Source: Kappaphycus alvarezii (lineage: Eukaryota; Rhodophyta; Florideophyceae; Gigartinales; Solieriaceae). Taken from it: a stretch of 64,000 bases of DNA. Of the stretch, positions 19,100 through 53,310 are shown in pieces. The DNA lies in the NCBI GenBank assembly GCA_002205965.3, contig NADL03000776.1, forward strand, positions 1-64,000, read 5' to 3'. Every line of letters begins with the position of its first letter. Position 1 is the stretch's first letter. Below the pieces are notes generated by a model. The model worked only from the letters and a program-made list of their open reading frames with translations, did not search any database and was not told the origin of the DNA. The position numbers and the translations under genes were made by a program.

Positions 19100-20500
19100 A
19101 ATTCGAATTCAATGATAACTGTACTGCAATGTACAGTTATTTTGCAGTCCTAAACTGCTTGTAAAAAGACTATCGTAAAAGGAGTTTGAGGAGCTTTGAT
19201 CAGCTACGAGGCGCGATATCCAATTCAACGTAAAATTATGGGCGGATTCTCCCCCTTGGGAATCAAAGTTGCACCGCTTTATTAATACCGAAACTCCCAA
19301 CCCTCTTCGGCTGGAGCTTCAGTACACCATCTGGGTCTGGGCTTGTGCTAATTTCAGCATCAACCGCTTGCGATTCCTGCAAGGCTAGTACCAAGCTATT
19401 GCATACATAGCTTGGTCCTGCGTTCATCATTTACGACGAACCGCTCAACAATACCACCTCTAATACAGTTTAGCTGAATTTTACATGGTTAGGTACACCA
19501 TTGCGACTATACACTCAGCACAAACAACTCAAATATAGTTCTTCTGTGTGTAATGTGGCTAACAAACTCTTAGAATACCACTAACGACTCAGTACTACCA
19601 CCTAAAGTGCAATCCAGCCGTGTTTTACTCCTAAAATATTAGATTAACCACAGAAAATTCAAATTAATAGGCATATTTACATTCTGGTTTGGCAAATAGC
19701 CTTTGAAAGCTTCCTAAAATTTTCGGCACAAAATCGACAAACTAAATGGCAAATGCTTATAGTCACACAGACAAATTACAAAAATCCAGTCACAATGCAT
19801 ATTACAAATTCACAACAGTAACTATATAAGTCAGATGGAGCGTTCGTCGTTCCGATAATAAACAGAATGTGGTGTTGGAAATGTTAAACAAGGACTTGCA
19901 CACATCGGGATCCGTGTCCTCGGAAGAGGAAGAGTAAATATAATTGGAGGGAAAGGAAGCGATTCGCGCCGTGTTACTCGAATCGAAGCTGAAAAGTTTC
20001 AAGAAGAAGTAACAGGAGTAATTTTGAACACAATAGAGAGACAATTTCAAACATATCCCTAATGCCAGAATTTTCTGATCGATTTATCGCTCGGTAAATA
20101 TGACCGTTTACTAGTTAGGCGCTCGTCGCCATTTCACATTTCTGCTTTGATGGACCGCATGTCCACGTTGTAAACGTGCTTCCCACGAAGTTTGGGCGCG
20201 TGAGAAGGGTTATTACAGCAGCACGAAAGGCTTCAATTTGGGGTTCTATAGTGGGTTGAAGGGACTCAAAAAATTACCTCTCGATCCATATATCGATCCA
20301 TAGGGCCACTTTACTCCACATACCAAGCCTTTCAACAATGATACTGTTCTGAGTATACTTCCCCCTCCTGCGCCTCTTTCGAAGCGTAGGATCTTGGTTG
20401 TCATTAGCAGCAGACCGGCGGCTTTTAGATTACCGCGTAGGCCTAGATTGTCGTACCTCTTCCGGTGCATTCCCAGTTATTTGTCCGTTCTCTTCCGTTG
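19100..20500. other. Intergenic, no supported gene
   Basis: AT-rich, with no recognisable coding motif on either strand. It contains the 3' flank of the large transposase pseudogene. Confidence 0.4.
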
Positions 20501-20502
20501 CA

Positions 20503-23412
20503 TTAGCAGGAAATTGTTCCTTCATAACCCTCTGCCCCATTCCCACTTTCATCAGTACTACCACTCCCAGCCTCATCATTTCCATCACCTATAGTTGCTT
20601 GGGCCAAGGCTGTCGCTGTCGCGGCCATTAAAGCAGTTCTTGAAGCGCGACTGCTACCAGCAGTGAGAAATCTTTCCGTGCTTCTACTACTTCCTCTACT
20701 GGCATTTTCGGGCGTTAAGAGCAAGACTAGTTCTTTGTGACCATGCCAAATAATCCAACAAGAGACCCTTAGACCTTCATGAACCCTAATACGTAAGTTC
20801 GCAGCACACAAGGAGCAGTGGTACGAAGAGCGATGTCCTCGATTCGGAGGAGGGTTCTGACCACACAAAGCGCAACAAAGAGACTTGTCTTGAATAGGCT
20901 CATGACCTTGAACAACAGTTCTTAGCATGAAACCATCTGCGCTGTTAACGAAAACGATGCGCTTGTTCTTCCGATCATGGGCAAGTCTTACTAGCCTCTT
21001 AATTTATTCCTTCGAAAGGCTACAAGATTGAGCGTTAGTACATTCCTCCTCCACTGGAAGAACTGATTCAACTCCAACAAGTGGTGTTGATGCATAACCA
21101 AGCAGCTCTTGTGACACATCCAACATAAAATTGTTAGTCGCTTGCATTTTGTTGAGCAAGTTGCGATAGCCATACAAAGACCGAAAAGTGTCTGCAGATT
21201 CCAATAAGTCCCGCCTCTCAAACATGCGCCATCCTATAAAGGCATTGATTTCAAAAGTCTTTATAGTTTGCGAGACAATCTTCTGCTCCCAATAAAAATG
21301 CGACGACTGTGACCTTAGGTTGGCTCGCATTTGACTAGCTCCATCGACGCCTCCCTTCGGCTTCGAGTAAAAGCTCTGCGATGCATGCTTAAATAGTTTC
21401 AGCGGAACAAGAGGCCCTTTTTCCCTTACATTCTGATCAACATTACACCAAAAAGGAAGCCTCCTCGTAAGCTTTTCAGCTTGTTCTGGCGTGAGGTAGG
21501 CTGGGGCTGAAGGATCAGCCAAGTGAGCCCATTTGACTATGCAACCTACAGTTGTAACCAAAGCATGATGTGAGGCCTGCAATACAGACATGGGGCACCG
21601 AAACAAAACAATGTAAAGTATTACAGTCTCCGTTGCACAAAAATAAAGTCCTAAACCAATTCCGAGAATGAGCAATTGATGCAGTACTTGACCCATATGT
21701 TCCCTTGGGATATACTTACGAAAGTCGGCATCCCCAACATCGCAACAAATGAGATCAGTGGTCGATAGAGTGGCAGAAGTCCCAAGTGTTGACGCAGCTA
21801 CCCGTGTCTTAATTTCTACAAAGGCAAGGACATAGTTCTACTCCCCTTTTTCAAGCGTCCCTTCCAATACTACATCCCAATTGGGAAACAAGCTCTTCTC
21901 CCAAAGTGCTATACCGTCCGGAGAGCAAGCAAGAAAACAGCCATCCTTTTTCGCAACCGTTCTAACGTCAAAAAATTCCTTCAAAAACTCCTTCGATCGC
22001 AATGCACATAAGACTGGTTCCTCATTGATACTGCCTCGCATCATTGCTTCCGAAGAGAGTGTCGAGCTAAACCAACCATTATAAAACAAACAGAACCCCT
22101 GTTGACAGTCACGATCTGCACCATTAGCTGCTCCACCCAAACCTAGCTTCGTCCTTACCTCACCATTTCCCAACAGCACAGTACCAGCATTTGTTCTATT
22201 TATTCTAAATTGTCGCTAGACAAACCAGTCAGCGCAGCGTTGCCGAATTGTTATGGCATCACAAAAAGTCAGTACGGCATCTTCAACAACCTTCTGCACA
22301 GTCTGATAAGCTTCGTTGACGTTCCTTGAGCGGTAGAGGAGCGAACTGTTCAAGTCGGCACCAGTCTTAGCAACTGCAATCCAATTGTTGAGTGAATTTT
22401 GCACAATGGGTGGAACTGTGTCCAGAAACCTTAATACCTTTGCAAACTTGTTGGTACCCCCTTCCCTCACAGCGACAACTGCCATTTTGTTTTGCCCAAC
22501 CCGACGCCCATTAGCTCCAGCAAACTTTGTAGCAAAGAATGAAGCTGGCCCCAGCGAAAACTTTTCATTAATGACAAACTCCTTTCTCCTGTCAAAATCA
22601 AATTCTTGCTCCATCCTGCCGGATGAAGAAGCCCGCCCCTCGACGGGGGTCACTGTAGCTTGATCACTACTACCTGGTTCAGTCGTCACTAGATCCCGCG
22701 CAACCTCACTACCAGTAACCAACTCGTTTTCACCCCCCACATCTTCCTTGTCATTCAAATCTCCCCTTGAAGGATTAAAGAAAGAAGTCGCAACAAATGG
22801 ATGTGCTCGCAAGAATTGGTCGGACATTACGAAGGCCGATGCAACTCCGAACTCTGACTAGAGCTGCATAAAAGACTACTTCCCATAACCACGATCTGCG
22901 GTGACAATACAACTGCTGCCTGAAATGAATATTCCCGTAAAGTCTGCCTCCATTTGAGAGCTCTAACAAGCATCGGAGCTCAACAAAGATACTTTGCTAG
23001 GATCTTCATATCTTCTACCCCCCCGACGCACATTAGACCGTCCCCTACCTCTTCTTCTCCCTGCATTGCTACCCCCAGATGCAGCTGATGCAGCTGATGC
23101 CCTTCCACCTCTTCCCCTTGATCCGCTTGCTGAAGTGGCTCTTCTCCTGCTTGCCGCTGCAACATTTCGCCCTCTACCTCTACCACCACGCCCAACTCTT
23201 GTCAAAACACCACCACAAGCAAGACCTTTTGACCCAGCGATACTTCCAAGGCCACCACCTTCCAATCCATCCTGCTCAGCATTTGCAGATACCGATCCCC
23301 TCCCTCCACTGCCAGTTACGTTCCTCTCACCTCTCCTTGGTGCGAGTGGGGGACTTACAGAGTCTGTAACACGAGCCCCTGAGGGGTCGTGACGACTTGA
23401 AGGGTGATTTAT
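20503..23412 (-). pseudogene. PiggyBac-like transposase with embedded PD-(D/E)XK nuclease; one frame interrupted by nonsense codons
   Basis: From 23412 to 20503 a single minus-strand frame stays protein-like for about 970 codons. It is interrupted only by TAG at 22963, 22876, 22858, 22216 and 21838 and TAA at 21004 (left plus-strand coordinate of each), then ends with TAA at 20503. Order: Gly/Arg-rich (RGG-like) N-terminus (23400-23010); 'SSCIVTADRGYGK' near 22880-22920, likely one DDE-core Asp; 'FVMSDQFLRAHPFV'; an acidic loop; 'MAVVAVREGGTNKFAKVLRF'; a YqaJ-like nuclease (about 21600-22060); 'YSKPKGGVDGASQM' (about 21343), the GGVD block typical of the last PiggyBac Asp; 'FEINAFIGWRMF'; and a C-terminal Cys/His finger (CALC, CSLC, CW..WH; about 20735-20890), as in PiggyBac relatives. 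No ATG opens the frame and the first catalytic Asp block is not found, so the copy is defective. All stops could derive from CAG, CAA or TGG by C-to-T or G-to-A changes. Confidence 0.7.
21600..22060 (-). other. YqaJ/lambda-exonuclease-like PD-(D/E)XK nuclease domain inside the transposase frame
   Basis: The domain shows the four expected marks in order: an early Glu in 'MRGSINEEPVL'; 'FLACSPDGIA' with the PD Asp; 'LAFVEIKTRVA' with the E-x-K pair (E codon 21814-21816); and a later Gln in 'REHMGQVLHQLL'. The spacing suits YqaJ-type recombination exonucleases. A TAG at 21838-21840 falls between PD and ExK; otherwise the catalytic set is complete. It lies between the 'TADRGYGK' and 'KGGVDG' blocks, in the position of an insertion domain of a DDE transposase. 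The function (for example end processing or donor cleavage) is inferred, not shown. Confidence 0.65.
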
Positions 23413-23419
23413 TTACTGC

Positions 23420-24525
23420 GAGTGTGCAGCGGATGCGCATTGATTTAGTCCCCCTTCCTGGTGTTATTGGTTTTGTAGCTGCCGGTTGGGTTGTCGCGGG
23501 TTGTTGGGAGTAGTTTAGGGAGGAGTGGGGTTCTCAAATTAATCGATTGGAGGGACGTTGGTGGCCATAAAAGGAAGAGCGACTATGCAAAAGTGGACAG
23601 CATGGTGCGATGCACATCTTCCGAACCACTCATCGGATTTTTTTGCTTGAAGATACGTTATGACCGAAGGGAGCTCCGCATTACAGCGAAACAAAAATAT
23701 ACTAGATCTAATCCATTCTGGAGGATGGAAAGCTACTCACAAATGGCTTACTTTACATGCCTAGTGATCGAAATATAGATCAAAACGACTTGAAGCGTCA
23801 AAAGCCCAAAATTGGTTCTGATCTAAATATCGAACAATGGCGGCATTAGGGATATGACATCGACGGCCTCCAGCAGGCCTATGTTACTGTCATTAATTCA
23901 TCTGAGTAAAAAGATAGGGATCTATACATTTTTGTGCCCACTGGATGGCGCAGAGACAAAATTCCGTGGTCTGGAGGGAATTGAATGGCTTGTTCTATAT
24001 CCATTTAAATACTAATTCCGGTTTAGTTGCATCGATGTGTTTGAGAACAAAAAAGAGCGAACAATGTTTTTGCGTATACTACTTTCAGCTCATTAGGGTC
24101 CTAAATAATCATCGATATTCATTACTGTAGTGCAATTGGCACACATACTGTACTGCCATCGGCAGAGCTAATTTTGGTGATCTTTTTTTGATCTGATTCG
24201 CTGCTAACTAGCAGGCACTGTACTGTACAGTACAGTAAGGTAAATTTTCTTTTGTCGCCCACTATTAATTTTGGTACTGTATCCTCACCCGATGGGGCTT
24301 GAGGGCTTGCAATCTGGACCACTCGGCCCTCAAATGGGACCTGATATTTTCGCAAGTGAAAGGCACCTATTGGGCCAAGTGTCGACTTTACTGATCTCTG
24401 ACTTGGATGTCCCTAACTTGGCTGACCCTAACCTTCCCCACCCCGCCGTCCTAGATAACCCTAATCTAGTTAACTAGTATTTATATATCTACCTGGCCAC
24501 TAGGGCCCCAGATTAAACAGCCACC
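23420..24525. other. Intergenic; 5' flank of the transposase frame
   Basis: No supported gene. A GTACAGTA-type cluster occurs at 24212-24245. I found no clear TTAA-flanked terminal inverted repeat for the neighbouring PiggyBac-like element. Confidence 0.4.
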
Positions 24526-34423: not shown

Positions 34424-37064
34424 TTACTCTCCTTGCCAATGTCTTTCACAAAAGGCATTCATGCGTTCCATCGCCTCTTCTAAAACACTGCGTGGTGCCG
34501 AAAACACCAGCCGGATGAAGTTGGGCGCCTGGAAGCACTGTCCAGGCAGCACAAACACCGCCTCCTCCACCAACAGCTTCTTTGTAAACTCCATGTCATC
34601 CGCCAACCCCAACCGTTCCACATCCACTCCCACCATCACATACATTGCCCCTTGCGGTCGGATGCATCTCAACCCGCGGATTCCCCCCAGCTTGCTCTCC
34701 ATCAACTTTGCATTGTCCTCAAGTTCCCTCATCACCTCCACGAATCCTTCGTCCTCCACGCCGTTTTTCAACAACGTGGGCACTACCATTTGTGCCGGCG
34801 TATTCGGTACCAACATTCTTGTCGTTAGTTGTCGGATCCCTTTACGCACCCCGCCATTCTCCAACACCTTGTTTCGATCATGCAGCACCAACCATCCGAG
34901 CCGCCACCCCGGCACCACAAACTGCTTGCTAATCCCTCCTACACTCAACACCGGCACATCACTCGCCACACTTCCCATCGCCGTAAACCTTTCCGATGAA
35001 AACACCATATCCGCGTACACTTCATCCGCAATAATAGGCAACTTCAAAAGCGACGCCATCGCCAGTAAATCTTCAATGTGCGACTTGGAGTACACAGACC
35101 CGCACGGATTGGACGGGTTGTTCACCACAATAGCCGCCGTTCGTTTGTCAGCAAGTGCCATGACATCTTGCAATTCGATTTCCCAATTCTTCTCCGGGTT
35201 CACCCGATAGAACCGGCATTCAATTCCAAACCCCTCACTTATGGTTCGAAATAATGGGAAGCCCGGTTGCGGTAGCAACACGTTATCCCCTTCATTTGCA
35301 ATCGCCCCGATCGCAATCTCCAACGCTCCAGAGGTACCCGCCGTCAGCGTCACATCGTCTGCAGTCAGTGCCGACGCTTCGCTCGAATACCGCTCCGCAA
35401 CAGCCGCTCTCGCCTCCACGCTCCCCATCGACATGGTATATCCATTCGCTTTTCCACTCCGAATCACCTCTGTGAATCGTTCCACCGCCTGTTTGCTCAC
35501 ATTCAAATTCCCATACACAGTCGGATCCCCCACCGACAGACTAATCAACTTCTTGTCTGCATTCGGTTTCACATCAATATTCTGCACAAGATTCCGAATC
35601 GGGTTTATCGTCCGCATAGACCGGTCCGACGCACGCACGTTCCAACCATCCCCGATTCTCGACGCCCCTTGCACGGGCGGCTCCTTCGCGTCATCATCAC
35701 CCGACCCATTCGACGAATACACCCCCTTTTCTCTATTCATAACAGCACCAACCGCACCCCCACCCGCCTCCCCTTCCTTCTCTACATTCCCCGCCGCCTG
35801 CGCCCTCATAATCCCCATTGTCACCGCCTCCGCCTCCAAAGCAGCTCGGTCCTGTGCCGCCTTTCTCTCAGCCACCGACTCCGGATCAAGCGGCCCCACC
35901 GCCGCCCTTTCATGCGGCAACGAACCATCCTCAAGATAAATCTCGCTGTAACAATTATCACACAAAGACTCCTCATCCGTCGGTCGATCCGCATAACAAA
36001 CCGCCTTACACCTCGGACAGGGCGGACAATTCACCACCTCAAACGCCGCCTGCATTCCAAAAAACGGCTTACGCACAAACGGCACCCGCCCCACCTCCGC
36101 CATCAACCCACTCGCACACGCCGTCAACGCACACCGTCTCTTCGATCCCACCGCCTGTTCAAAATCCACCACCCTCGCTCTAGACAACGAGTACGCAAAC
36201 ACATTCTCCATACGTTTCGACTCCAACCCCGGCAACGCATATGCAAACGCATCCATCACATCCCCGCGCACGGGGAGCGCGGCACGCAGCGCAACCCGCT
36301 CATCAACGCCCGTCTCCACAGCTAGACGGTTCTTACGTCGACGCAAATTCTCCATACGCCGCTTTGTTTCGCCGACGGTAAGCCGGCGTGGATCCGCCGG
36401 TTGATAACCATGCAAACGATGCAGCGCGGTAATATCCACGCGTGGGGTGGGATGCATGGGCGATGCAGACGTGGCGGGAGAGGCGGGGTCGAAACGGAGG
36501 TGATGGAACCGGATGTGTCGGGGTTGGGGTGCGGGGTTTGGGTTTCGTTGTCGGTGTGGAGTTCGAGGCCAGAGTTGGGTAGTTGTTCATGTGGGTACAT
36601 GATGTTGAAGAGTTGCTCGTCGGAGAGTTTTGTCTCCTTGCCGCTGATGGCGTGGACGAGGTGTTCGAACTGGGTGTGGTGCGATCCCAGGCGGTGACTA
36701 GCTTGCTGAGATGGTTGCGGACGGTGCGTTCGTCGGTGGGAGTTCGTGAGACGGCGGCGCCGAGTTTGTCAAACATTGTGTTGACCTTGGAGGCATAGTC
36801 TGCATCGGATTTAGGCGCGGTGGGTGCGGAGTGGGGTTTGCGGACCGGGCGACGGCGTTGGCGGGTGGGTCTTTTGGATGGGAGATTTGAGGCGGTGGAT
36901 ATGATACAGGGATGTGGTTTATTCGGGGGTTTGGGATGGTTGTTTGTGGGGGTTTGGGGACGGTGCGAAAGTGGAGTGGCGGTGATAAAGTGGGGGGGGT
37001 GAAGGAGAAGTGGGGTGTGCGTGGCGAATGCCAGCTTTGAGGTGGGAACGGCTTGATGGTTCAT
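34424..37064 (-). CDS. Tyrosine aminotransferase joined to a zinc-motif N-terminal region (two apparent frameshifts)
   Basis: The C-terminal 400 residues are a pyridoxal-phosphate class I/II aminotransferase closest to tyrosine aminotransferase, which moves the amino group of tyrosine to 2-oxoglutarate. Seen: 'NPIRNLVQNIDVKPN', 'SLSVGDPTVYGNL', 'NNPSNPCGSVYSK', 'IIADEVYADMVF', the PLP lysine in 'GGISKQFVVPGWRLGW', and 'PQGAMYVMVG'. The same open frame reaches about 300 codons upstream without a stop, with a Cys motif 'CPPCPRCKAVCYAD ... LCDNC' and an Ala/Glu-rich helix. Further upstream protein-like sequence continues in two other frames to an ATG at 37062-37064. The joins fall near 36686-36688 (CCC run) and 36507-36508, each needing one extra base. 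The reader may treat this as one fusion gene. Alternatively the aminotransferase could start at an internal Met (for example 'MNREKGVYSS'), with the upstream part a separate gene. The aminotransferase identity is firm; the fusion is not proven. Confidence 0.85.
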
Positions 37065-40399: not shown

Positions 40400-43300
40400 T
40401 CACTTTGATCCACCATTGCGCATGACGCGAGGGCCAGGGCCAGGGCCAGGGCCAGGGCCACTGCCAACGTTGACATTGACTTCTTTCAACCCCCCGCGAT
40501 TCCGTTTCTTGACAACCTCCAGATCCGCCTCCTTTCTCTCCACCGCTTCCTGCACCCTCCTCAAGTCATTCTCCTTCAAACGTTCCCTCAACCGTCTTCC
40601 CTCCTCCACCACCGCCTCCTTCTCCTTTTCCAGTCGCCCCAACCTCACCTCAAACTGCCCATGCTCAACCAACAGCGCCGCATTCTTCGACTCGAGGAAA
40701 ATCATCCTCTCCAAGTCCTTCAACTCATCCCCTACAGTTCCCTTGTCTGCAACTTCTTGAATCAACTCCAAACGCCGATTCAGCTCCCCGATCATCAATT
40801 CCCGTCTCCGACACCTCTCTTCCAGCATCCCTATCACACCCCCGCCTCGACCCATCTCCTCAAACCGATCCTGTAATCTATAGATTTTTCGATCCCTCGC
40901 CTGAATCGTCTCCGACAGTTTCAACACCTCCCTCGTCCGTGTCGCAGTCTCGGTCATTAGCTTTTCGACCTCATATTCCAGCCTTCCCTTATCCTTCTTC
41001 ACCCCCTGCAACTCCGTCCGCAGCTTTTCCACCTCTCGCAATGATTCTTTCTCCCGCCCTTTCATACCCGTCTCGTACATCTCCATCTTCTTTTTCAACT
41101 CATCTTGCAGCCTGACCCGCTCCTCTCGTCCATGTTCCTCTGCCTCCCTCTTCAGTTTTTCCACCTCCTCCCGTTCTTTCACCTCCCTCTCATGCATTAC
41201 CACCATCTTGTGCAACTCATTTTGCAGCTTACCGCGCTCCTCCCTTTCATGTTCCTCCGCCTGTCTCTTCTCCTTTTCCAGCTCTTCCCACCTCTTCATC
41301 TCCCTCCCGTGCATCTCCACATTCTTCTTCAACTCATCTTGCAGTTTGACGCACTCCTCTCTTCCCCGTTCCTCCGCCTGTCTCTTCAGTGTTTCCAGCT
41401 CCTCAACTCGACCCTCCAAAACTTCAACCCTGTCCCGTGCCTCTTGCAATTCGCTCTTTCCTCTTTGTAAAGCCGGCCCGTATACCTCAATCTCTGCCTG
41501 CAATTTTGCCATACTTTCAATTTGTCCTGCCAATTTCCCCTCAGCCTCCTGCACCTTTGCTTCCGCCGCTTCCCGCCCACTTCTCTCCTCCTTTACAGAA
41601 TTCTCGAGCCCCTCCTCAATCATGCCAAGTTCCTGGATTCGTTTTCTGCTCTCTTGCAAGTGTGCGTCCGTCTCTTGACTTTCGTTTTCAGCCTCTCGCA
41701 GCTTTTCAGTCACCGTCTTCAGTTCTGAACGACACTCCTCCAAATCCAGTTGGCATTTGCCCAATTCCTCTTCGAGCTCGGCTACTTCGTTTCTGTGTTT
41801 CTCCATTGAGTTTCCTAGCTCCCTCATCTCCTCTTTCGAGGCACCCATCTTCTCTTCAACTTCCTGTAGCTTGTTGTTCAGCTCTATATTTTCGGCGCCC
41901 AACTCCTCCTTGGCACCCCTCAACGTATCCCTTTCGGCTGCAAGCTCCTTCACCTCGTCCTCCAACTGACTTATAGTCCTACTCATGTCTTCCAACCCAC
42001 TCTCCGCCACCTTTGCCTTGGCCTGCAATGCCGCAATTTCCTCCCTCATCTCCTTCTCACTAGCCTCAAATCGCTTTCGTTCCTCATTCAATTGCTTATT
42101 GATACGTTCGTGGCCCTTGTTTTGATGGCCGCGATGCTTTTCGATCTCCCCAGTCAACACCTTGTTCTTTCTCATTATTTCCTTCAACTCCTTCTCCACG
42201 GCAACTTTCTCCGACCCCAGTTTGGTACTCGTTTGCCTTAACGTCTTGCATTTCTTCTCTGCCTCCCCTAGCTTCCCTTGCAAGAATTTCATCTCCTTCA
42301 TTACCGGCCCTACCCCTCTCTTCTCCCGTTTCACCACCTCTGCATGCTCCTTCTCCAGCTCCCCCAAACGTTTTTTCAACCCACAGTTCTTGTCTTTCAC
42401 ACCCTCCAAATCCTGTAACCTGTTGCACATCTCTCGAACCTCCCCACGCACCTCCGCCCTTACCCCAGCCTCTGTCACCAAATCATTCACGAGGGACTCG
42501 ACTATGGACCCCGCCAACGCAGAATTCGCCCTCGCGCATTCTCTTTCAGCCTCGCATCGAGCAGCTTCCACCTCCTCACATGTGCTTACAAGTGCCTCTA
42601 CCTCTGCCATCATTGCCTGTCGTTCATACCTAATTTCGGCAATCGCTTGACGCTCACGTCGCTCCGCTTCCAAAGCACGCTTCTCTGCAACGAGAACTTT
42701 GGTTCGAAGACCAGATGCTTCTGCCGAACTGTCCAGTGAACGGGCCGACTGGCGCTTTGATTTGAGACCTTCCAAAGTGGTAAGCGCGCTCACCAGGTTG
42801 CAACTTTGTGATTTGGACCAACTCAAGGACGCGGACGATAATTGCGCAACAGCTTGATCTGCTTTTGCTTCCTTCATCTGCTTGACGAGCACGTCAAACT
42901 TCTTCCCAAACGCGATGACACGCCCGCTAGCGCCTTGTTTCGACCCCGTGCCGATAGCCGCATCGGAAACAGGGACGACACCTGATTTAAGCTTCTGATT
43001 CTCGGCTCTCAAGGTGGCCAACTCCTTCTCTGCTCTTCGCAGCTTCGCACGGTCATCAAGAAACTCATTGGTCTTTGCATGATTGGTGACCTTCTTCGCT
43101 CGACTCGCAAATTTGAGGGTGCTCAAGGTTTCCTCCATGTGGAGCACGGCAGGAGTGACAGCGCAAACAATAGCAGTACGTGCATTGCCACCCAAAGCGG
43201 GTTGAAGAAGACGAGTCAGCTTGGAATCCCGGTAGGGGATATGGGCGGAGGAACCTGCCTCGCCGGAGCTGAGTTTGTTGATGACGTTTCCAAGGGTGAG

Positions 43301-44140
43301 CAAGCTCTTATTGATGTGTCCACCTTCTACCAATCGCATGCCTTGTGCTTTGGTGAAAGAGGCCCGTTCCGAGCCGGCTAAATCGACCAGGGATAAGGTG
43401 CTTGCACGAACTGCGACGCCATCATCGGTTGGCGGCTCCTCACCTTGTTCTTCTTGGGGTGTAAGCTCTCTGGATTCGATTTTGAGTGAAAAAATGGTAT
43501 GAGAGCGAGACGAACGTTCATTCATGTTGGTTTCGCCAACGGCTCTAGCGGTTTCCCCGCGTGCAATGATGTCCATGACCTGAGAAACCGAGGTGACCAC
43601 TTCCTCTCGAGAATCAACAAAGACTCGCTTGTTGAATACGTCTTCATGAATTTTGAGGTTGTCGTTGTCCGGTTGTAAAAGGTCACGTATGATTTCATTG
43701 TAAATTTCGATGTAACTCGCGCGTAGGAGGAATTGGCGGTTGGTGCAAGACGCAATGAGGTGAAAGACCTCTGCAATGGAGCGTCGAGTGACCCCCGGGT
43801 CTCCCTCAGTGCCCAGCATAGTATAGGTCTTACCCGCCGCTGTTTGCCCATAGGCGAAAATGACGCCGTTAATACCATCGGTGGCGGACGTAACAACAGG
43901 CTTTGCCAATGCATTGTAAACCTGTTCATTGTTGATGACGGGCTCGAAAACATGGTCAAAGGCGAAAGAATTGGCGGCTATAGGCTTGTCTTGAATGCAT
44001 TGTGTGATGGTGGTGTTGGAGATTGACCAGGAGGATTTACACTCCACGGCGGCGACCTTCTCCCGTGTATTGAGCGGTCGAACGCGGATACAGACGCGAA
44101 CACCATCCGAAGGAGACGGAGGCGGGGAGTCGGTAGCCAT
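40400..44140 (-). CDS. Kinesin motor protein, kinesin-7/CENP-E-like
   Basis: Microtubule motor of 1246 residues in one uninterrupted frame. The first ATG is 44138-44140 (MATDSPPPSP); the frame reaches two codons further, but from TTG. The N-terminal motor (about 12-345) shows 'RVCIRVRPLN', P-loop GQTAAGKT (98-105; Ala where most kinesins have Ser), switch I 'NERSSRSH', switch II 'LVDLAGSER', and 'HIPYRDSKLTRLLQ'. The neck 'TLKFASRAKKVTNHAKTNE' fits kinesin-7. A coiled coil fills most of 360-1220, and the end is a (GP)n tail encoded by a GGGCCA repeat. N-terminal motor polarity suggests plus-end movement; a mitotic or cytokinetic role is inferred from the family. The upstream region has repeated GGAAAC hexamers. 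Confidence 0.93.
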   Translation of the reverse strand: MATDSPPPSPSDGVRVCIRVRPLNTREKVAAVECKSSWSISNTTITQCIQDKPIAANSFAFDHVFEPVINNEQVYNALAKPVVTSATDGINGVIFAYGQTAAGKTYTMLGTEGDPGVTRRSIAEVFHLIASCTNRQFLLRASYIEIYNEIIRDLLQPDNDNLKIHEDVFNKRVFVDSREEVVTSVSQVMDIIARGETARAVGETNMNERSSRSHTIFSLKIESRELTPQEEQGEEPPTDDGVAVRASTLSLVDLAGSERASFTKAQGMRLVEGGHINKSLLTLGNVINKLSSGEAGSSAHIPYRDSKLTRLLQPALGGNARTAIVCAVTPAVLHMEETLSTLKFASRAKKVTNHAKTNEFLDDRAKLRRAEKELATLRAENQKLKSGVVPVSDAAIGTGSKQGASGRVIAFGKKFDVLVKQMKEAKADQAVAQLSSASLSWSKSQSCNLVSALTTLEGLKSKRQSARSLDSSAEASGLRTKVLVAEKRALEAERRERQAIAEIRYERQAMMAEVEALVSTCEEVEAARCEAERECARANSALAGSIVESLVNDLVTEAGVRAEVRGEVREMCNRLQDLEGVKDKNCGLKKRLGELEKEHAEVVKREKRGVGPVMKEMKFLQGKLGEAEKKCKTLRQTSTKLGSEKVAVEKELKEIMRKNKVLTGEIEKHRGHQNKGHERINKQLNEERKRFEASEKEMREEIAALQAKAKVAESGLEDMSRTISQLEDEVKELAAERDTLRGAKEELGAENIELNNKLQEVEEKMGASKEEMRELGNSMEKHRNEVAELEEELGKCQLDLEECRSELKTVTEKLREAENESQETDAHLQESRKRIQELGMIEEGLENSVKEERSGREAAEAKVQEAEGKLAGQIESMAKLQAEIEVYGPALQRGKSELQEARDRVEVLEGRVEELETLKRQAEERGREECVKLQDELKKNVEMHGREMKRWEELEKEKRQAEEHEREERGKLQNELHKMVVMHEREVKEREEVEKLKREAEEHGREERVRLQDELKKKMEMYETGMKGREKESLREVEKLRTELQGVKKDKGRLEYEVEKLMTETATRTREVLKLSETIQARDRKIYRLQDRFEEMGRGGGVIGMLEERCRRRELMIGELNRRLELIQEVADKGTVGDELKDLERMIFLESKNAALLVEHGQFEVRLGRLEKEKEAVVEEGRRLRERLKENDLRRVQEAVERKEADLEVVKKRNRGGLKEVNVNVGSGPGPGPGPGPRVMRNGGSK
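40430..40462. repeat. Hexanucleotide repeat in the kinesin C-terminus
   Basis: Five to six tandem GGGCCA units encode alternating Gly-Pro near the protein end. Likely length-variable. Confidence 0.85.
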
Positions 44141-44233
44141 TTGCAAAGATGCGACTGCCGTGCACGGCGTTAGTTTGTTTGGCGTGTTGTAAAGTGTGTT
44201 CCCAACGTCACACGGCCAATGCCAACTCCTCTT

Positions 44234-52392: not shown

Positions 52393-53310
52393 TTAGATAG
52401 ATTCTCTAATACGAAACTTCCAAGAACCAACGACTTTTGTATCTTGAATATCCATAAATGAAATACCTATCCCATTCTGTTCCGGTAAATCCTCTTCAAG
52501 ATCACTTCGAAACCATAGAGTCCAGTCATGAAGAAGTCCTTTAATAGGTCGAAATTCATATAAAATCACTCCGTAGGGCCCTGTTACGATTTGACACTTA
52601 ATGTAATTCTTTCTTTTATGGACGTTATAAGCAATCATCTGCAGTATGTGTGACCCATTTGGTCTAACGATGCCAATTCCTGTCCCTTCTATGAAGTCCA
52701 CACAATTAGTTAGCCCATTTAGTTTGGATCTTATTGTTTCCGCACATATAGCAGCTCGAGCCTGCATATATGGATTTGATAGACCAATTGTTAGTAAGTT
52801 ACCCCTCGTGGTAAGAAGCCACTCCAGACCTTCCCAGAATATTTCTGATAACTGTGAGGCTTTTTTTTCAAATATCACCTCCATTTCTGTCCATCTCGAC
52901 GGTGTGGCGATTCGACGGAGTATTACATAGGTCACAGTCAAGGCTTTCACAGCGTACATGTTCCTCTAGGTAGAATATTGTGATATTGGCCACCAGATAA
53001 CGTCAACGACGTTCGATATATGCTTTCTTTCAAAGCGTAACAGCGTTATACAGTCCCAATTGCTTAGACCATTGAAGTTAAACGAGATGCTTGACAAGCT
53101 AATGCAATTACTCCTTTGCAGCATATTCCGTAGATCTTGGCGAAGTTGATGAAATTTATACTGGACTGTTGTGAGAGAAGTGGTGGATATGAAGCTTGAT
53201 TCTCGGCTTATCAGTTTCCGGCTAGACAAAATTAGCAAAACAAGCCTCCAATTACGATGCTGGTTGTCACATTTATGTTGAGTGAAGTCCTTTAATCGGC
53301 CTCTTGTCAT
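52393..53310 (-). pseudogene. PIF/Harbinger-like (DDE_Tnp_4) transposase, one in-frame TAG
   Basis: A minus-strand frame from about 53310 to 52393 is continuous except for TAG at 52966-52968. The N-terminal part has 'LRNMLQRSNCISLSSIS' and 'RFERKHISNVVDVI'. The second part begins 'VKALTVTYVILRRIATPSRW', typical of the region before the catalytic core. Then 'FIEGTGIGIVRP' sits where the family has an Asp-Gly-Thr motif (here Glu replaces Asp); 'KCQIVTGPYGVILYEFRP' and 'GLLHDWTLWF' (second Asp) follow. The frame ends at TAA before the third acidic residue region is clear, so the C-terminus is truncated. Confidence 0.7.

Follow-up and report, generated by a model that had tools for sequence, protein, structure and literature searches.

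Can the catalytic domain of a transposase house an entire second nuclease? The question is raised by a decayed reading frame in a 64,000-nucleotide stretch of DNA (hereafter the window) from the red alga Kappaphycus alvarezii (contig NADL03000776.1, positions 1 to 64,000), for which a preliminary description, made from the letters alone, had reported PiggyBac-like transposase blocks on either side of a PD-(D/E)XK nuclease. The blocks quoted in that description are all present, in the same order and in one minus-strand frame that runs from 23412 to 20503, where it terminates with TAA. The span it gave, 20503-23412, is that of the frame and not of the whole element, since the transposon itself occupies 20057-23851. 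The frame is interrupted by six internal stops (TAG at 22963, 22876, 22858, 22216 and 21838, and TAA at 21004), and the element is a dead copy belonging to a family of cut-and-paste DNA transposons. When five pieces of the window copy were compared with Pfam by themselves, no transposase or YqaJ family scored: three pieces had no family at E ≤ 10 and two gave weak zinc-finger or unrelated matches (best 0.001). Because this copy by itself is too decayed for Pfam, the reality of the arrangement rests on its relatives.

These relatives are too numerous for a chance arrangement. Searches of the same genome (336 Mb, the single eukaryotic genome covered here) with two pieces of the window gave at least 165 and at least 143 matches, and the block of copy L039 that spans the first two catalytic aspartates (Asp1 and Asp2) gave at least 135; the counts are lower bounds because the best candidates alone were scored. 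For 99 of the 143 matches listed with the second query, one aligned stretch extends from the EIK motif of the nuclease to the third catalytic aspartate (Asp3). A first-query match lies upstream on the same strand for 70 of the 137 second-query places listed, at a median of 1.04 kb, and no first-query match on the opposite strand was found within 4 kb of these 137 places. We aligned the window with 37 further loci, 38 copies in all that do not overlap; likeness to the window and, in part, the length of the frame decided which were taken, and the set is therefore no random sample of this family. The Asp2, PD, EIK and Asp3 columns are all present in 36 of them, and in all 36 they follow one another in this order on one strand, with 1471-1808 bases between Asp2 and Asp3. 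Nesting of a nuclease of the RecE/YqaJ kind between the core blocks, as first proposed for the window, thus recurs in every copy that could be checked, and within the searched genome no relative was seen in which the nuclease is a separate gene.

Several copies keep these blocks joined in open frames. The frame of L041 (958 amino acids) contains Asp1, the second catalytic position, the nuclease, Asp3 and the Cys/His finger, and this is the sole copy among the 37 that is open from Asp1 to the finger; a 578-amino-acid frame of L050 spans Asp2 to Asp3. L040 has an open frame of 975 amino acids leading from a basic N terminus through Asp1 and Asp2 to the entire nuclease, L039 (867 amino acids), L049 and L053 remain open from Asp1 through the nuclease, and L036 and L042 hold the nuclease through the finger in a single frame. 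Being in frame with its flanking blocks in the open copies, the nuclease is a domain within this frame; it is not an adjacent gene. Within the three groups that were compared, copies are 95-98% identical over 3.5-4.75 kb, and some must therefore have moved recently. Stop-codon recoding was ruled out, there being no excess of any one stop over the 38 copies (TAG 45, TAA 50, TGA 52). Two arrangements of copies were seen in passing: L015 and L016 on contig C488, which lie about 8 kb apart on opposite strands with near-equal scores and the same stop types, may be a duplicated segment or an assembly repeat, and four flank matches on one strand of C760:133102-151904, spaced by about 6.24 kb, point to a larger repeat arrayed in tandem.

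The identity of the nested domain comes from profile matches. Both the RecE-like family phrog_434 (best 5.7e-7) and the YqaJ family PF09588 (best 1.9e-4; L039 at 21.7 bits) were matched by 10 of 11 aligned copies. A whole-genome search with PF09588 gave four matches of 29.7-36.6 bits (best 8.6e-7), all above the cut-off of 22; the four places (on C58, C669, C690 and C488) all adjoin places listed for the transposon family, and the search found no YqaJ match away from it. The catalytic residues are kept in most of the 38 copies: 34 have the motif Glu, 33 the PD Asp, 35 each the Glu and the Lys of EIK, and 36 the Gln.

Selection on the nuclease was gauged between 15 subfamilies, defined by single linkage at 75% identity over the nuclease, with short loci maybe split too finely. 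Across the four blocks compared, the median proportion of synonymous differences (pS) between subfamilies is 0.79-0.83, near saturation, and that of nonsynonymous differences (pN) is 0.29-0.37. The medians are pS 0.79 and pN 0.37 for the nuclease (642 pairs), 0.83 and 0.29 for the Asp1-Asp2 block (540 pairs) and 0.83 and 0.31 for the Asp3 block (606 pairs), and columns 495-600, the block between Asp2 and the nuclease, have a median pN/pS of 0.44. For pairs with a synonymous divergence (dS) of 1-2, the median ratio of nonsynonymous to synonymous divergence (dN/dS) is 0.28 in the nuclease (8 pairs) and 0.36 in the Asp1-Asp2 block (10 pairs). At dS < 1 the medians are 0.57-0.89; recent copies therefore decay almost freely, which speaks against current function. 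Pairwise distances in the nuclease co-vary with those in the N and C blocks (Spearman 0.64 and 0.74 with every pair included, 0.53 and 0.65 with divergent pairs alone). Because of the constraint between subfamilies and these co-varying distances, we read the nuclease as having probably been acquired once, and then inherited and selected jointly with the transposase.

Relatives were also sought outside this genome. Viral contigs searched with profiles A1, A2 and A3 gave 41, 139 and 23 pattern matches, and prokaryote contigs searched with A1 gave 37, none of which was confirmed as a relative; among phages the L039 nuclease had no match at E ≤ 1. Within the genome, roughly 40 Asp1-Asp2 places, counted by eye in capped lists, had no nuclease match among those listed. 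The three of them that were inspected gave no nuclease-free ancestor: two carry the nuclease and the C block, and the third, L068, is without the nuclease and Asp3; a nuclease-free lineage may yet exist among the others. In L068 (C600:43200-45900) a deletion has brought the region that follows Asp2 up against the block that follows Asp3, taking nuclease and Asp3 out together.

What kind of transposase surrounds the nuclease? The flanking blocks resemble those of DDE enzymes and bear PiggyBac hallmarks, in keeping with the original description, and the core reported for the window copy survives there in its Asp2 and Asp3 blocks, although its Asp1 block has been deleted. Across the 38 copies Asp1 is kept in 29, Asp2 in 34 and Asp3 in 36. 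We aligned the family profile, without its nuclease columns, to those of seven ordinary PiggyBac proteins from the same genome using hhalign, and family columns 341, 420 and 912 fell on Asp1, Asp2 and Asp3 of one of these, L001; the scores of the Asp2 and Asp3 blocks were each equalled by 1 of 200 column shuffles. The block that contains Asp3 and the downstream W and N gave an ungapped 50-residue match to residues 437-486 of the piggyBac structure 6x67 (E 1.1). An Arg stands seven residues after Asp1 in 32 of the 38 copies, and at the column aligned with piggyBac N440 a Ser is kept in 41 of the 46 rows that the alignment had before overlapping loci were taken out. In the C-terminal finger five Cys are kept in 31-35 of the 38 copies, a His in 34 and a sixth Cys in 28, and the finger families PF13842 and PF03107 (C1_2) each touch 8 of 12 C-block members below threshold. 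PF01609 (DDE_Tnp_1) likewise scores below threshold against the Asp1-Asp2 block, in 7 of 13 members (best 0.0036), and the one PDB match to profile A2 at E ≤ 1 is an unrelated pyrophosphatase (0.31).

Within the triad, Asp1 and Asp2 are 79 residues apart in the family and 90 in the ordinary PiggyBacs L001, L055 and L057, and Asp2 and Asp3 are 492 apart in L041 and 119-131 in the same three. As a control, L001 matches PF13843 at 9.4e-67 from first to last position in one piece, with no nuclease and no PHROG match at E ≤ 0.1. Another PiggyBac frame, L058 (449 amino acids, open), has Ala at the Asp2 position and was left out of the spacing comparison. On its sequence the transposase is best classed as a PiggyBac-related DDD enzyme and not a canonical PiggyBac, because it fails to reach PF13843 and has a target other than TTAA; of the original assignment the relationship stands, and the plain PiggyBac identity does not.

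The ends of the element were defined by comparison with a sister copy, L054 (contig C52), to which the window aligns in three pieces of 91-92% identity with outer ends at 20053 and 23856. Besides the deletion that took the Asp1 block, the window copy lacks about 760 further L054 bases near the other end of L054. Both window termini, each read on its own strand, are ATAT-CCCTAATGCC; the 13-base sequence ATATCCCTAATGC occurs at these two ends only in the 64-kb window (allowing one mismatch), and two occurrences were seen in 0 of 100 shuffles. Ends were mapped in the window and in 16 loci taken with long flanks (8.4 kb each), and both were located in 12 of these 17 places (not in L042, L050, L051, L052 or L053), giving element lengths of 3.8-5.2 kb, of which the window copy is the shortest. 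Eleven of the 12 have ATAT on both sides and the other has GTAT and ATAT; the family does not conform to a TTAA target and has ATAT instead.

Unoccupied sites agree with this target. Joined flanks of three elements (the window, L049 and L054) were searched in the genome and empty sites were recovered for two: those of the window matched one unoccupied site (89% over 204 of 204 bases, with three gaps in a 207-column alignment and ATATAT at the junction), those of L049 matched three, and those of L054 matched none in this search. A single ATAT is aligned at the junction in each of the four. As ATAT is palindromic, a 4-base duplication, a 2-base TA duplication and insertion between AT and AT without duplication predict identical filled and empty sites; by analogy with piggyBac alone, four bases would be the preferred length of the target-site duplication (TSD). 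The ordinary PF13843 PiggyBacs of this genome, L001-L008 (on C681, C675, C744 and others), are 2.45 kb long and 98-99% identical, and four examples of their ends (CCCCTCGTCTGTA) have AT on both sides and no TTAA; TTAA may therefore not be the rule in this genome.

Computation establishes how the protein is built, that this build is conserved across the family, where the transposon ends lie and that the target is ATAT. We consider it probable that this is a PiggyBac-related DDD transposase whose nuclease, nested between Asp2 and Asp3, processes the ends of its own transposon in cis. The DDD core would use ATAT in the way that piggyBac uses TTAA, cutting and joining the ends of the element there, and the nuclease would occupy the slot that holds an insertion domain in piggyBac and in other DDE enzymes, facing the DNA channel that this domain lines in piggyBac. 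Held beside the transposon end in this manner, it would most likely act on that same end in cis, either by cutting the second strand or by trimming the freed ends. We tentatively favour the 5' (non-transferred) strand at the junction of transposon and flank as its substrate; opening or trimming of hairpins and resection of the donor break are further options. The Ser in place of N440 would fit a changed contact leading to the changed target, ATAT. By analogy, a role like that of TnsA in Tn7 would be a reasonable inference. A bolder version, which we put forward tentatively and regard as doubtful, makes the protein a eukaryotic one-protein counterpart of TnsA-TnsB, in which the nested PD-(D/E)XK domain would make the second-strand cut, the element would exit without hairpins, and the ATAT preference would come from a rebuilt insertion-domain wall of the target channel.

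A number of results weigh against cis processing by a PiggyBac relative. PiggyBac releases its own ends through hairpins and has no second nuclease, so that a nuclease is, on first principles, dispensable. None of the 37 loci is fully intact, with an open frame from Asp1 to the finger and all residues in place; Asp2 and Asp3 share one open frame in only 2 of the 37 (L041 and L050), all test columns share a reading frame in 7 of the 38 copies, and in L041 Asp2 is replaced by Glu and the PD Asp by Asn. Profile A1, that of the nuclease, found nothing in the PDB at E ≤ 1. The probability that hhalign itself assigns to the PiggyBac alignment is 1-2%, ClpX zinc fingers outrank 6x67 in the structure profile search, and PF13843 was not reached in the Pfam scans (best, 1 of 12 C-block members at E 0.069) and had none of its 119 listed genome matches on C772 (116 of 951 candidates scored). 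The missing PF13843, together with the ATAT target and the DDE_Tnp_1 touches on the Asp1-Asp2 block, might indicate a separate IS4-like DDE lineage that came to its PiggyBac-like end by convergence. We think this unlikely: the GGVD..W..N match to piggyBac is ungapped and is followed by the Cys/His end, the three Asp columns align with those of ordinary PiggyBacs in a shuffle-tested comparison, the Arg at Asp1+7 is shared, and TTAA flanks are likewise missing from the four examples of ordinary PF13843 elements in this genome. Frequent frame breaks between the nuclease and the adjacent blocks would be expected if the nuclease were a separate mobile element or gene that lies inside the transposon copies by chance, but this is scarcely credible for a domain that has the same position in 36 of 36 checkable copies, is in frame in L041 and L050 and co-varies in distance with its flanks, nor did the genome search yield another YqaJ match; L068, the nuclease-less one of the three places inspected, is also without Asp3.

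Other alternatives concern what the nuclease does. Within the same architecture it could be a 5'-3' exonuclease that acts on the donor break and resects the chromosome ends, whereupon repair copied from the sister or homologue would restore the element and raise its copy number. This is possible, if not what we expect: the closest families are recombination exonucleases (RecE-like and YqaJ), and the internal deletions of the window copy and L068 are like those of interrupted gap repair, but internal deletions are common in DNA transposons, these two are anecdotal, and a domain locked in the transposase core is better placed for the transposon end than for a chromosome break. A fold that is purely structural, shaping the DNA channel as an insertion domain with its catalysis unused, seems very unlikely to us. 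It would account for the position of the nuclease in the insertion-domain slot, for its being the least conserved of the four blocks (median pN 0.37 against 0.29-0.35) and for substitutions at catalytic places such as the Asn of L041, yet the catalytic set is kept in 33-36 of the 38 copies even though the synonymous sites of the subfamilies are near saturation.

The features of the transposon copy are collected in Table 1. Elsewhere in the window, all on the minus strand, are a syntaxin 6/10/61-type SNARE gene of the host (1406-2167), a host class I/II aminotransferase gene (34424-36586), a kinesin gene (40400-44233; PF00225, 6e-106) whose C-terminal half contains a 117-base tandem repeat (41089-41404), and a sub-threshold fragment of a DDE_Tnp_4 transposase (52393-52965).

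Table 1. Features of the decayed transposon copy, in window positions
Feature	Position	Strand	Basis or remark
Whole transposon copy, decayed, 3795 bases	20057..23851	-	Common to L054; pieces end at termini
Left ATAT target tetranucleotide	20053..20056	.	Single ATAT aligned at junction of empty site L065
Terminal inverted repeat CCCTAATGCC, downstream end relative to reading frame	20057..20066	+	End comparison
Terminal inverted repeat GGCATTAGGG, upstream end relative to reading frame	23842..23851	+	End comparison
Right ATAT target tetranucleotide	23852..23855	.	End comparison
Transposase-nuclease frame	20503..23412	-	Six internal stops, five TAG and one TAA
Arg/Gly-rich basic N-terminal segment	22966..23412	-	Translation; similar segment in L040
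Internal deletion junction, about 690 bases relative to L054, Asp1 block lost	22916..22917	-	Asp1 codon of L054 at 3739
Asp2 block TADRGYGK	22879..22902	-	Alignment column 420, Asp kept in 34 of the 38
Start of conserved block between Asp2 and nuclease (EFVINEKFSLGP..)	22522..22581	-	Follows a variable linker
RecE/YqaJ-like PD-(D/E)XK nuclease, ADWFV to Gln motif	21676..22233	-	Profiles and alignment
Nuclease Glu motif (SSEAMMRGSINE)	22018..22065	-	Family alignment
Nuclease PD motif (CSPDG)	21904..21930	-	Family alignment
Nuclease EIK motif (VEIKTR)	21796..21822	-	Family alignment
Nuclease Gln motif (EHMGQVLHQ)	21676..21705	-	Family alignment
Asp3 block KGGVDGASQ	21331..21357	-	Family alignment; 6x67 match
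Helical block with W and N of PiggyBac pattern	21223..21297	-	Profile matches 6x67 437-486 without gaps
C-terminal Cys/His finger	20758..20877	-	Family alignment

DDE transposases deal with the second strand by hairpins, by copying or through a partner nuclease. If our preferred reading of end processing in cis is true, a transposase that encloses a whole second nuclease in its catalytic domain would offer a novel solution to this problem; alternatively, the family would represent a new way of steering donor repair. Unrelated to the transposase around it, the nested domain is of a DNA-cutting type that viruses employ in recombination, here present in a large family of a eukaryotic genome. With the enzymes of the RecE/YqaJ/lambda exonuclease group (PF09588, phrog_434) it shares the Glu, PD, ExK and Gln motifs in the same order; those enzymes are mostly free-standing phage recombination enzymes, whereas here the fold is a nested domain of a transposase. 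Tn7 pairs the PD-(D/E)XK nuclease TnsA with the DDE transposase TnsB, two proteins that act on the same ends, and the present family resembles it in the pairing and differs in having one protein in place of two; the Pfam tables for the transposon family list no family of TnsA.

The closest comparison for the transposase itself is piggyBac, as described in the available sections of PMC7351741. There the triad is spaced by 78 (D268-D346) and 101 residues (D346-D447), and an insertion domain (372-433) lies between D346 and D447, after the fifth RNase H strand, and helps to line the channel for hairpin and target DNA. The ends are freed via hairpins with a four-base loop and TTAA is recognised by similar contacts; R275, seven residues after D268, contacts the hairpin and N440 contacts a base of the TTAA hairpin (PMC7351741, same sections). 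The algal family shares with piggyBac a DDD triad with 79 residues in place of 78 between Asp1 and Asp2, the GGVD-W-N block, an Arg at the place of R275, a low-complexity N terminus, a Cys/His end, an AT-rich palindromic four-base target, and transposon ends that begin CCCTA (for piggyBac, again as given in those sections). Unlike piggyBac (PF13843 and PF13842; solved as 6x67 and 6x68), it has a RecE/YqaJ nuclease between Asp2 and Asp3, which are 492 residues apart in L041 as against 101, its target is ATAT and not TTAA, and it does not reach PF13843. PiggyMac has a domain with a C1-like cross-brace fold (PMC8086355, available part), a likeness to the sub-threshold PF03107 touches on 8 of the 12 C-block members, but PiggyMac is a domesticated ciliate protein for which the same part of that paper mentions no nuclease.

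Among the titles and abstract openings listed in a literature search that left Repbase and most subscription papers outside its range, we found no description of a YqaJ domain inside a PiggyBac-type transposase; clam and weevil papers that include YqaJ, in the portions available, merely name the domains. The pairing of a DDE transposase with a YqaJ nuclease is itself not wholly new, ISL2EU of the PHIS superfamily being the closest known precedent: in the available text it encodes the two as separate open reading frames (ORFs) (PMC4482050, PMC9179366), its transposase is Harbinger-like with a helix-turn-helix (HTH) or THAP domain, and its TSD is AT within AATT (PMC4482050). No Harbinger-like DDE family with THAP or HTH appears in the Pfam tables of our transposon family. 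The family would also help to test the role of YqaJ in ISL2EU, left unknown in the available text of PMC4482050. Like ISL2EU, as far as that text describes it, the K. alvarezii family unites a DDE transposase and a YqaJ nuclease in one element with an AT-rich target; unlike ISL2EU, it has no second ORF for the nuclease, which in L041 and L050 shares a frame with the transposase blocks.

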